From positions 62,001 to 126,000 of the forward strand of contig NZ_CAJATU010000063.1 in the NCBI RefSeq assembly GCF_903944925.1: DNA of 64,000 bases, given 5' to 3'. The position numbers were made by a program, and so were the translations under genes. The notes below the pieces were generated by a model. That model did no database searches, was not told where the DNA came from, and saw only the letters and a list, made by a program, of their open reading frames with translations. Each line of letters opens with the position of its first letter. The first letter of the stretch is position 1. Origin of the DNA: an uncultured Rhodopila sp. Lineage in GTDB: Bacteria; Pseudomonadota; Alphaproteobacteria; Acetobacterales; Acetobacteraceae. Of the stretch, positions 52,988-57,704 are shown one piece after another.

Positions 52988-53557
52988 TCAGTCCACCTGT
53001 CCGAGGCTCTCGGCGACGAAGCGGCCAAGCCCGGCCGCTGAAAACGGCTTGGCCAGCAATTTTTCCCCGACGAGGCTGTGGGCGTGACGATAGCCGCTGA
53101 TGAAAACGACCCTCAGCCCCGGAAAGTCGTGCCGCAGCCGGGCTGCCAACCGGGTCCCGTCCTCCTCGGGCATGACGACGTCGGTGACGACCAGATCGAG
53201 TTTGCCGACAGTGTGGGCGATCGCGTAGGCCGCTTTGGCGCTGGCAGCCTCGACGACAGTATAACCAAAATCCGTCAGCATTTCACTGACCACTTCGCGG
53301 ACATTGTCGTCGTCGTCAACGACGAGTATTGTAATGCTACCATCCCGCAACGGGCCGCCGGCGGGAGCGTCGGCGGCCTTGCCGTCCATCGCGCCGCCGC
53401 GCGGCTTCTCTTCGCCGGTGGCGCAAATCCCGCCGAACGCCCCGGCATCGGGCGAAAGATACGAGGCGGCCTGCATAAATCCGAAGGTCCTGGCGCCCGG
53501 CGCCCGGGTCCGCCTGCGTGTTCCGGGGCCGAACTGTATGTCATTGACTGCGTTCAT
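52988..53557 (-). CDS. stand-alone response regulator receiver protein
   Basis: ITILVVDDDDNVREVVSEML, LDLVVTDVVMPEEDG, KPFSAAGL. Confidence 0.92.
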   Translation of the reverse strand: MNAVNDIQFGPGTRRRTRAPGARTFGFMQAASYLSPDAGAFGGICATGEEKPRGGAMDGKAADAPAGGPLRDGSITILVVDDDDNVREVVSEMLTDFGYTVVEAASAKAAYAIAHTVGKLDLVVTDVVMPEEDGTRLAARLRHDFPGLRVVFISGYRHAHSLVGEKLLAKPFSAAGLGRFVAESLGQVD

Positions 53558-53770
53558 CACTCGCCCCGACTGTTTGAGGGGCATTGGTAGGCTCGATGCG
53601 GCATGCCGCAAACTCAGGAAATTCCCTACGGCAAGCCGTTTGGTCATCGGAAGCCGGCGGCAAATATATTATTCTCGCATATTTGGCTCAAGAGAGCAAA
53701 AAAACACCGATACTCAACAAAAGACACGGCAAGCTCGTTACGAAGTCATCGCGAGGCCTGGTGTCGTGCA

Positions 53771-54400
53771 TCAAAAGTGGCCCAGCAGCGCCCGCAGGAC
53801 GCCGATCCGTACGAGGGCGTAAGGTGTATCGACTTTGAGCTTCTCGTATAGATGCGAGCGATGTGTTTCAATGGTCTTCGGGCTCACGCCAAGTTCGTTG
53901 GCGACTTGCTTGGTCGATAAGCCCCGGGTGAAACCATCGAACACCTCGCGCTCACGCGGGGACAGGGTGGAAATCCGGAAACCCGCCGCGGCCGCCTCGC
54001 TCCGCAGGCTGACGGTTGTCGTGGCCTGCTGCATGGCGGCATGCAGAGTCCGCAACAATATCGCCGGGTCCAACGGCTTGTTCAGGAAATCGACCGCGCC
54101 CGCGCGCATCGCTTCAACCACCAGGGGCGTCTCGGCATATCCGCTGATGACAATGACGGGCAGCCGGTTCGGTCGGCGGCTCAGTTCCTCCACCAGCCGG
54201 ACACCGTCCATCCGCGGCAATCGCACATCGGTGATCAGGCATCCGGTCAGCTCCGGCGTGTGGTCCAGCAGGAACGCCTCCGCCGACTCATAACTTTTGA
54301 CGACCAGTCCGGCCACTTGCAGGTGCAAACAAAGCCGATCGCGGGCTTCCGGATCGTCCTCGACAACGAAAACGGTTGGAATCGCTGGTTCGATCTGCAT
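53771..54400 (-). CDS. FixJ/LuxR-type two-component response regulator
   Basis: TVFVVEDDPEARDRL, TDVRLPRMDG, LSPREREVFDGFTRGLSTKQVANELGVSPKTIETHRSHLYEKL. Confidence 0.96.
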   Translation of the reverse strand: MQIEPAIPTVFVVEDDPEARDRLCLHLQVAGLVVKSYESAEAFLLDHTPELTGCLITDVRLPRMDGVRLVEELSRRPNRLPVIVISGYAETPLVVEAMRAGAVDFLNKPLDPAILLRTLHAAMQQATTTVSLRSEAAAAGFRISTLSPREREVFDGFTRGLSTKQVANELGVSPKTIETHRSHLYEKLKVDTPYALVRIGVLRALLGHF

Positions 54401-54611
54401 GACGGTTGTCCGTTGCCAGCCGGCTCGTGCATGAAGAACGCATTACCTCAGTGGCGGTGGCTGGCCCGGTCTCCAACGGGTCGCAACCACCGGTGGCCTC
54501 GACTTAGTCTCGCTTCAACAAACCGGCTATATCGCCAGCGATACTACACGCTTAAACCCTCACCCGCGCCGCACGTTTTCTTGGGTAGCGATCCCTCGCG
54601 GGAATTCGGGC

Positions 54612-54986
54612 TCAGGATTCGCGTCTCAGGAAGATCCAGCAGCCACCGCCGGCGGCGGACTGGATGCGCACGTCCAGCGCCCGGGTCCGGTCATCGAAAT
54701 CGCCGATATGGGAGAAGGCGATGTCCAGTTTCCCCGCTGCCAGGGCGCGCTCGATGCGGCCGCGAAAGTCCGGGTTATTCATGCACGGCGCGATATCGAC
54801 GAAAAACTCCAGCCCGATGGCGGGTTTCGTATAGCCGGAGAGGCGCCTCTCGGCAGCGTTGAAGGAAACCACGCGTCCGTCCGGATCGAGATGGATCGCG
54901 CCGAACGAAAGCTGATCCACCTCATGTGCGGCCAGGCTTTCCACCGCCGCGGCAAGCCGGGGTTCATCGAAATCCACCTTTTCCAA
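54612..54986 (-). CDS. pyp: photoactive yellow protein (PYP) homologue, Tyr42->Phe variant
   Basis: DQLSFGAIHLDPDGRVVSFNAAERRLSG...FFVDIAPCMNNPDFRGRIERALAAGKLDIAF...CWIFLRR aligns by eye with the recalled H. halophila PYP sequence (FGAIQLDGDGNILQYNAAE...FFKDVAPCTDSPEF). Confidence 0.85.
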   Translation of the reverse strand: MEKVDFDEPRLAAAVESLAAHEVDQLSFGAIHLDPDGRVVSFNAAERRLSGYTKPAIGLEFFVDIAPCMNNPDFRGRIERALAAGKLDIAFSHIGDFDDRTRALDVRIQSAAGGGCWIFLRRES

Positions 54987-55011
54987 CGCCAGTCTCCTTC
55001 CACCTGATACT

Positions 55012-57222
55012 TCATTGCGATAGTTGCGGGCCGGTCCGGCCGGTGAACATGACGATCCCCGTTAGGTGCGTCACGCTGGTGCCGTTGTCCGACAGCGGCA
55101 GCAACAGCCGCTCGAAGCTGACCGGTTCGCTGTCGCCGAAGTCGCAACGGGCATACTCATAGCTGGGCGCCCGGGTCCGGGCGCAGCGTCGGTAGGCGCC
55201 GTCCAATGAACCGATGGCCTGGTCGTCCGGACTCTGCCCGGATTCCGGCGTCATCGCGAGCGTGCGGCCGAGCCGCGCAGCCAATGCCGGGCCGAACCGC
55301 AGGAAGCGAAACGTCAGCGGACCTTCCTGCTGTTCCACCGCCACGGTAAACGCATGGTTCGCCTCCGGCAGCAGCGCAGGTTCCAAATCGGCCGGCCGCG
55401 GCAGCAACTGACCGTTCTGCGCGGCACGCCATGCCAGGTAGGTGGCGCACAGGCCGGGACTGCGGAACTTCCTGAGGAACTTCGCGTCCGCCGAAACCAC
55501 CGTTTCGGCAGCGCGGTTGAGGCCGCGAAACACCGCTTCCCGCAGTTGGCTGCCGGAGAACGGCTTGCGCAGCACGGGCTGGCCGCTGATGGCTGCATGG
55601 CCCGATTCCCCGGTGACAAACAGCACCGGCAGGCCGGGGCGTTCGGCCCGGAGCCGCGCGATCAGTTGCGGTCCGGTCGCGCCCGGCAACGCCACGTCGG
55701 TCACCAGCAGGTCCAGCGCCGGCATGCCGTGCGCCAGAACCTCCGCGGCCTCCGCGTTGCGGGCATGCACGACACGGTATCCCCAGTCGCGCAACAATCC
55801 GGTTGCGATGCGTTGCAGGTGGTCGTCGTCCTCCACCAGCAGGATGCTGCCGCCCGGCCCGTCCGCCGGCTGTGCCGCCTCCGGCGTGCCGTCCCGGGCG
55901 GCGGTGACTGCGGCGCGCGGCAGGATGATCTCGATCAGCGTGCCACCGTCCGGCGGGCTGTCGATCATCAGGCAGCCGCCTGACTGGTTGGCGAAGTCGT
56001 TCACCATCGCCAGCCCCAGGCCGGTGCCCTTGCCCTGCGGCTTGGTGGTGAAGAACGGCTCGGTGGCGCGCGCCTGCACCTCGGGCGGCATGCCCGGGCC
56101 GTTGTCGCGCACGGCGATGGCGACGTAATCCTGCTCGCGCAGATGCGCGGGCCGCTCTTCGGCGGCCAGATTGCGCGCCGAAATAGCCAGCGTGCCGCCG
56201 TCCGGCATGGCGTCGCGCGCATTGACCCCGAGGTTGAGCAAGGCGATCTCAAGCTGGTGCGGGTCCGCCAGAACGGGCCAGACGCCGACGGGAGCCTCGA
56301 CCGATCGTTTTATGCCGGCGCCCGTTGCATGGCGCAGCAGATCGTCAGCGGAACGAAGCGCGGCTGCAACGTCGAGCACTTCAGGGGCCAACGCATCCCT
56401 GCGGCCGAAGCAGAGGAGCTGCTGTACCAGAATGACCGCCCGGTTCGCAGCAGTTTTCCCGCGCGCCGCCAGGCTGGCGATCGCCGGATCCTTCGACCGG
56501 TTTTCGATCAGTTCGTAAACGCCGAGTACGGCATTCAGGATGTTGTTGAAATCATGCGACACGCTGGCGGTCAAATGCCCGAGCGCCTCCAGCTTCTGCG
56601 ATTGCAGCAGCGCCGTCTGGACGGCCTCGCGCCGCCGCATCTCGGCACCGAGCTCATCGGCGGCGTCGGTCAGCGCGCGGGTCCGCTCGACCAGGCGGGT
56701 TTCGAGCGCTTCCAGCCGGTGTGCCGCGACCTCGCGGGCCAGGACCAAAGTCGTAATGTCGGTGCACGTGCCGAGCCAGCACAGCACGTCTCCGGCCGGG
56801 TCGGTGCGTTGCGCCGAGGCGCGGGTGATGAACCAGCGATAGCCGCCTTCTTTGCCACGCATCCGCTGCTCGGACTCGAAGTCCTCACCGGATTCGACGG
56901 CGCGGCGCCAGGCGTGTTCGGCCCGGTCGCGGTCGTCCGGGTGCAGGGCGTCGGTCCAGCCGGTGGCGGTGTCCGGCTCGGAGCCGCTATAGGCGTGCCA
57001 GCGGCGGTTGCGGAACAGGATACGGCCGTCCGGTGCGGCAACAAAGGCGATCCCGGGCATGGCTTCCACCAGCGCGTGGAGCCGGCATTCATCGGTGGCG
57101 CAGCAGCCGGCGGCCGGGGGTGCGGACCTTGCCCGGGGGGACTTGCCGGCGCGGCGCGTTGCGGGATCACAGGGGAGCGGGGTGCGAAGCAAGGTACGGA
57201 TACTGCCTGTCTTGGCGGTCAC
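55012..57222 (-). CDS. hybrid sensor histidine kinase (PAS-HisKA-HATPase-REC-C-terminal PAS-like domain)
   Basis: PAS with WHAYSG, LGHLTASVSHDFNNILNAVLGVYEL, GKGTGLGLAMVNDFA, REC DLLVTDVALPGATG, then a 180-aa C-terminal PAS_5-like region. Confidence 0.93.
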   Translation of the reverse strand: MTAKTGSIRTLLRTPLPCDPATRRAGKSPRARSAPPAAGCCATDECRLHALVEAMPGIAFVAAPDGRILFRNRRWHAYSGSEPDTATGWTDALHPDDRDRAEHAWRRAVESGEDFESEQRMRGKEGGYRWFITRASAQRTDPAGDVLCWLGTCTDITTLVLAREVAAHRLEALETRLVERTRALTDAADELGAEMRRREAVQTALLQSQKLEALGHLTASVSHDFNNILNAVLGVYELIENRSKDPAIASLAARGKTAANRAVILVQQLLCFGRRDALAPEVLDVAAALRSADDLLRHATGAGIKRSVEAPVGVWPVLADPHQLEIALLNLGVNARDAMPDGGTLAISARNLAAEERPAHLREQDYVAIAVRDNGPGMPPEVQARATEPFFTTKPQGKGTGLGLAMVNDFANQSGGCLMIDSPPDGGTLIEIILPRAAVTAARDGTPEAAQPADGPGGSILLVEDDDHLQRIATGLLRDWGYRVVHARNAEAAEVLAHGMPALDLLVTDVALPGATGPQLIARLRAERPGLPVLFVTGESGHAAISGQPVLRKPFSGSQLREAVFRGLNRAAETVVSADAKFLRKFRSPGLCATYLAWRAAQNGQLLPRPADLEPALLPEANHAFTVAVEQQEGPLTFRFLRFGPALAARLGRTLAMTPESGQSPDDQAIGSLDGAYRRCARTRAPSYEYARCDFGDSEPVSFERLLLPLSDNGTSVTHLTGIVMFTGRTGPQLSQ

Positions 57223-57690: not shown

Positions 57691-57704
57691 TGGATCGGCA
57701 CCGT

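Follow-up and report, generated by a model that had tools for sequence, protein, structure and literature searches.

A PAS_5-like histidine kinase domain as candidate partner of one photoactive yellow protein clade in Rhodopila and other Acetobacteraceae

Within 64,000 nucleotides of contig NZ_CAJATU010000063.1 of an uncultured Rhodopila sp. (assembly GCF_903944925.1, positions 62,001 to 126,000, forward strand; this whole stretch is the window below), a gene for a photoactive yellow protein (PYP) lies directly downstream of a hybrid histidine kinase gene, whose product ends in a PAS_5-like domain that we call P5. The kinase-pyp adjacency is not due to chance, since it was found in 17 other loci, and the conserved unit is this pair and not the cluster of four genes in which it lies. 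We favour, at a probability of roughly 0.6, a two-gene module in which the PYP would serve as a blue-light input acting in trans on the kinase via P5. Rhodopila globiformis (Acetobacteraceae) and the source genome (7.0 Mb, 200 contigs, 99.4% complete) are placed in one GTDB genus.

An earlier note on this DNA had described four genes on one strand: a hybrid kinase, pyp 25 bp behind it, a FixJ/LuxR regulator and a lone receiver. All four open reading frames (ORFs) are present in this order on the minus strand. Tight spacing is confined to the first two; the kinase stop and the TTG start of pyp are 25 bp apart, and gaps of 211 bp and at least 123 bp separate pyp from fixJ and fixJ from the receiver gene. 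The pair comprises the following features:

55012..57222, minus strand: hybrid histidine kinase, 736 amino acids (aa), GTG start, PAS-HisKA-HATPase_c-REC-P5 (Pfam; CckA-like NCBIfam core; intact motifs)
56749..57084, minus strand: N-terminal PAS domain of the kinase, aa 47-158 (Pfam PAS_4/PAS_3/PAS)
56392..56583, minus strand: HisKA dimerisation/phosphoacceptor domain, aa 214-277, motif SHDFNNIL (Pfam, 25.9 bits against 26.9; motif)
55915..56265, minus strand: HATPase_c domain of the kinase, aa 320-436 (Pfam, 69 bits)
55531..55845, minus strand: C-terminal receiver of the kinase, aa 460-564, motif LVTDVALP (Pfam, 54 bits; motif)
55042..55500, minus strand: P5, C-terminal PAS_5-like domain, aa 575-727, common to all 18 pyp-adjacent partner proteins (sub-threshold Pfam PAS_5; own profile and alignment; model with PAS-type fold)
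54612..54986, minus strand: pyp, photoactive yellow protein homologue, 124 aa, TTG start with Shine-Dalgarno sequence (TIGR02373; PDB; model; pocket residues)

The Pfam domain order of the kinase is that of a hybrid histidine kinase, with HisKA carrying its His, HATPase_c, and a C-terminal receiver carrying its Asp, and the H, N, G1, G2 and receiver-Asp motifs are all intact. The best NCBIfam match of the HisKA-HATPase-REC core was CckA-like, with 289 bits against an equivalog cut-off of 1000. Alignment of P5 to PAS_5 (PF07310) covered aa 594-724 and gave 19.7 bits, short of the gathering score of 22, and the domain is for this reason named PAS_5-like only. An assignment of P5 as a LOV domain was rejected; its structure model gave a weak match to a PAS-type fold only (template modelling score, TM, about 0.42).

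In 42 of the 397 Acetobacteraceae genomes searched, the PYP model detected homologues, and their neighbourhoods were analysed with our own gene calls and profiles. The recurrent layout is a [PAS]n-HisKA-HATPase-REC-P5 kinase followed immediately by pyp. Including the window, 18 loci combine P5 and pyp on the same strand; pyp lies downstream in 17 of them, and in one (L090) it comes first. The kinase-pyp gaps range mostly from -26 to +55 bp and reach 137 and about 490 bp in two loci (L034, L035), which encode HWE-type kinases with P5 adjoining pyp and a small receiver gene after it. Rhodopila loci with a P5 kinase and pyp in a common gene neighbourhood were found in R. globiformis (L031), in two further genomes (L037 in G007, L038 in G024) and, as a second copy, on contig C76 of the source genome itself (L028). 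The pair is also present in Roseomonas nepalensis (L014) and in other genera (L069, L071, L072, L074, L075, L081, L089, L090). Scanning 385 genomes spread over the class detected only one strong kinase-borne P5 outside Acetobacteraceae (161 bits, G761, another alphaproteobacterial family), which is followed by pyp with a 4-bp overlap; many other matches were weak and lay mostly in short ORFs. P5 is the partner common to the 18 loci; it is borne by HisKA-REC kinases, by HWE kinases and, in one case, by a protein that is not a kinase. The last case, in R. globiformis (L032:8622-9594), has 204 aa, a hydrophobic N-terminus and P5, and its gene overlaps pyp; it could represent a P5-PYP pair in minimal form or what is left of a kinase. 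The proposal that the PYP is tied to the kinase is borne out by this adjacency in Rhodopila, in other Acetobacteraceae and in one other alphaproteobacterial family. Conservation of the neighbourhood in relatives holds for the kinase-pyp pair and fails for FixJ and the lone receiver.

In a tree of 73 PYP sequences, all 18 P5-linked PYPs fall into one clade (support 100/99). This clade holds four others only, of which two lie at contig ends (L099, L125) and two are degenerate (L097, L098). The latter are PYP-like and have neither Cys69 nor Glu46 nor a P5 neighbour; light sensing was possibly lost together with the partner. Apart from degenerate and contig-edge copies, the clade was not seen without P5. 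The reverse does not hold: among the 28 loci of the P5 tree, 18 are beside pyp, eight have no pyp and two end at a contig edge beyond which a pyp could follow (L160, L161), so a confinement of P5 to pyp neighbourhoods was rejected. PYP thus seems to need P5, and not vice versa. Because the loci without pyp are scattered among those with it, the tree points to repeated loss or gain of pyp at P5 loci. In the PYP tree the window PYP pairs with that of L037 (L037:9167-9547), both having Phe42, while the G007 kinase groups with other Rhodopila kinases; the topology is suggestive of a partner exchange of pyp within Rhodopila (approximately unbiased test, p = 0.055).

The pyp gene has a TTG start preceded by a GGAAGGAGA Shine-Dalgarno sequence. 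Sequence and predicted fold both place its product in the photoactive yellow protein family. Its match to TIGR02373 (E 1e-24, 87 bits) lies under the 143-bit cut-off of this model, which recognised only about 20% of the PYP homologues in the survey of Xing (PMC9664959). PDB sequence matches were PYPs without exception, and the AlphaFold model (predicted local distance difference test, pLDDT, 78) fits PYP crystal structures with a TM of about 0.8. Cys69, the chromophore thioester residue that Xing 2022 used to define the family (PMC9664959), is present in the pocket, as is Glu46, while Thr50 is replaced by Ser, Tyr42 by Phe, Phe96 by Gly and Met100 by Asp. Across the P5-linked PYPs, Cys69, Glu46, Ser50, Ala67, Phe92 and Trp119 are invariant (18/18) and Tyr42 is kept in 14/18, with Phe in the remaining 4/18 including the window PYP; Phe96 is changed to Gly in 16/18, and Met100 to Asp or Ser, likewise in 16/18. 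With the invariant positions, these PYPs keep the residues for chromophore attachment and proton transfer, and the changed ones include positions for which a role in photocycle tuning has been proposed (PMC12826048).

We propose that the kinase ending in P5 and the single-domain PYP form a two-gene module, which is probably co-transcribed. PYP, with a hydroxycinnamate chromophore on Cys69, would be a blue-light input acting in trans. Its signalling state would alter a direct contact to P5 by PAS-PAS docking, and the altered contact would shift the kinase/phosphatase balance; co-transcription, photoactivity, docking and the sign of the effect are all predictions of this model. P5 as the contact site is suggested by analogy, with MopJ as a supporting case: this Caulobacter protein consists of a single PAS_5 domain and binds the histidine kinase DivJ (PMC4432633). 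Control of a kinase by a fused PYP domain has been cited for Ppr of R. centenum (PMC12826048). Because kinases of this family occur without PYP and have PAS/GAF inputs of their own, PYP would be an add-on light modulator. In the source genome the phosphoryl group may end on the adjoining FixJ/LuxR regulator, and the lone receiver may be a sink or competitor; transfer to the regulator would have to be direct or to pass through an unlinked Hpt. A broader version of the model, which we hold more tentatively and at somewhat under even odds, makes P5 a dedicated PYP-docking domain, and P5 plus PYP a portable trans light-input module for HisKA-REC and HWE kinases that would often be loaded with exogenous hydroxycinnamate, since several of the genomes encode no recognisable ammonia lyase.

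The two genes downstream of the pair are the following:

53771..54400, minus strand: FixJ/LuxR-type response regulator, 209 aa, possible output, outside the conserved unit (Pfam Response_reg and GerE; ortholog search)
52988..53647, minus strand: lone receiver protein, 219 aa as listed, possible phosphate sink, not conserved (Pfam; 40-47% identity to P5-kinase receivers)

The regulator has a FixJ-like architecture only, given that its 191 bits against the FixJ equivalog NF006900 do not reach the cut-off of 255. No other Rhodopila genome searched has an ortholog, the best match being 44% identical; the closest relatives in those genomes belong to clusters that also encode a PAS-kinase and a lone receiver (L230, L231, L232). 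In the listed ORF of the lone receiver the domain comprises aa 107-189 of 219, and because it begins only at aa 107 the true start of the gene probably lies further inside. A promoter-like site (53691-53663, minus strand) precedes this gene, which may therefore be transcribed separately. Collinearity with other Rhodopila genomes, whose DNA is about 91% identical in G007, ends at 57701, just upstream of the kinase. Because synteny breaks there, the position looks like a rearrangement or insertion junction at which this kinase-pyp copy sits, and the link to FixJ may for that reason be a local addition. Around the break the nearest matching anchors are 13.5 kb apart in G024 and about 67 kb apart in the source genome. 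A mobile island around the cluster was not supported; apparent housekeeping genes lie in the window to the left of it.

Several observations weigh against the two-gene light-input module. FixJ and the lone receiver were not found at the other kinase-pyp loci, two HWE loci having an unrelated small receiver, so neither is part of the conserved unit, and both are candidate outputs of the module at most. This also tells against a full four-gene relay, in which the PYP-controlled kinase would phosphorylate both the FixJ/LuxR regulator and the lone receiver and so place transcription under light control. Strand and gene order are common to the four genes, no terminator was predicted in the 211-bp gap between pyp and fixJ, the lone receiver is close to the receivers of the P5-kinase family, and the nearest Rhodopila relatives of FixJ lie in FixJ-kinase-receiver clusters (L230, L232). 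Against these stand the absence of both genes elsewhere, the missing FixJ ortholog, the wide gaps and the promoter-like site. Phosphotransfer from a hybrid kinase to a separate regulator usually passes through an Hpt protein, and none is encoded in the cluster. We consider the relay unlikely, and the earlier proposal that FixJ and the lone receiver are parts of the system was not supported. The same judgement applies to a second alternative, in which PYP is a chemical rather than a light sensor, or is light-sensitive only with a plant-derived hydroxycinnamate, so that the module would report light and phenolics. Despite the conserved pocket, seven P5-pyp genomes (the source genome, R. globiformis, G007, G009, G311, G133 and G258) gave no match to the aromatic ammonia-lyase family, which counts against the two-gene module too; the absence rests on draft genomes and is no proof. 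In seven other P5-pyp genomes just one lyase was found, at about 590-610 bits, and it is probably a histidine ammonia-lyase; G143 has two. Other enzymes may make p-coumarate; moreover, TAL adjoins pyp in only 5% of pyp operons generally and its absence is also common among accepted PYPs (PMC12826048). An exogenous source is the simplest guess for the chromophore in P5-pyp genomes, and uptake of p-coumarate by some bacteria has also been suggested by Dohmen et al. (PMC12826048). An adjoining acyl-CoA synthetase and crotonase were rejected as chromophore genes, given generic-family matches only and no positive evidence, and a genome-wide search with the p-hydroxycinnamoyl-CoA hydratase/lyase model gave nothing above cut-off.

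The Phe at position 42 of the window PYP and the replacement of Phe96 and Met100 are further points against a photoactive module. Together with the occurrence of Phe42 in 4/18, the loss of both other residues in most of the clade and the degenerate sister copies L097 and L098, they could mean that the window PYP is no longer photoactive and either remains as a scaffold or is in decay. We regard this as quite improbable, as Cys69 and Glu46 are kept in every P5-linked PYP and Tyr42 in most; Y42F, a natural variant that is tolerated, makes up about 9% of PYPs, and no more than 56% have a conserved Phe96 (PMC9664959, PMC12826048). Lastly, the kinase-pyp linkage could mean co-expression only, with the target of PYP elsewhere and an unrelated function of P5. 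The eight P5 loci without an adjoining pyp, with two more cut by contig ends, speak for this, as does the scatter of such kinases among pyp-bearing ones. The tie of the PYP clade to P5 is seen with both types of kinase, with the protein that has P5 alone and in two families, which makes mere co-expression improbable too, a little more so than the relay or the chemical sensor. The two-gene module with P5 as the contact stays our preferred reading. In it an entire PYP clade goes with a single domain, which is constant while the attached kinase changes. The signal output of single-domain PYPs is called an open question in both recent family surveys (PMC12826048, PMC9664959), and P5 offers one candidate partner and one candidate interface for it in a cultured species, R. 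globiformis DSM 161, which has three such loci. If true, this would be a separable blue-light switch for histidine kinases.

Other PYP neighbourhoods were also observed. A third PYP of the source genome (L029:228-1867, contig C89) belongs to another clade and its gene lies 14 bp upstream of a PAS-GGDEF gene; R. globiformis and G007 have the same pair (L033, L036). In other Acetobacteraceae, higher-scoring PYPs are flanked by three similar small proteins of about 160-215 aa, an arrangement that recurs (L106, L107, L108, L110, L111, L116). One locus (L070:7425-9893) contains two tandem pyp genes, then a protein with a GGDEF-like stretch and a histidine kinase, and then a receiver gene.

The earlier note knew of no system with exactly this gene arrangement, and the view that there is nothing comparable needs correction, as kinase genes upstream of pyp are already known. 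In Dohmen 2025, 17 predicted pyp operons include HisKA/HATPase genes, preferentially upstream (PMC12826048), and Xing 2022 notes kinases adjoining pyp in clade A neighbourhoods (PMC9664959). The window pair, with its kinase gene on the same strand 25 bp upstream, has the gene order of a predicted pyp operon of the Dohmen type and shares with the operons of both surveys a single-domain PYP, a histidine kinase gene that is usually upstream, and a TAL gene that is usually not in the operon. The main text of Dohmen 2025 does not name PAS_5 and contains neither P5/PAS_5 nor the pattern of two kinase classes, and Rhodopila, Acetobacter- and Roseomonas are not named in the main texts of either survey, whose supplementary lists may hold some of the loci. 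Not found in these main texts were P5 itself, its occurrence both on kinases of two classes and without a kinase, and its link to a single PYP clade. In Ppr of Rhodospirillum centenum (PYP-phytochrome-histidine kinase) a PYP domain likewise feeds a histidine kinase; there it is fused N-terminally with a phytochrome, whereas the window PYP is a separate protein of another PYP clade and is not associated with a phytochrome domain. Pairs of PYP and PAS-GGDEF (Xing clade C type), of which the source genome has one at L029, also combine a single-domain PYP with one dedicated output gene, but belong to a different PYP clade and have a cyclic di-GMP (c-di-GMP) output where the window pair has a kinase. 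CckA-type hybrid kinases are alike in the HisKA-HATPase-REC core, for which they are the best match, and the window kinase differs from them in its sensory part, in its C-terminal P5 and in a score far below the equivalog cut-off. MopJ (PMC4432633) resembles the P5 system in having a PAS_5 domain that works with a histidine kinase; it is stand-alone and without PYP, whereas P5, whose homology to PAS_5 is a sub-threshold Pfam match, is fused to the C-terminus of the kinase.

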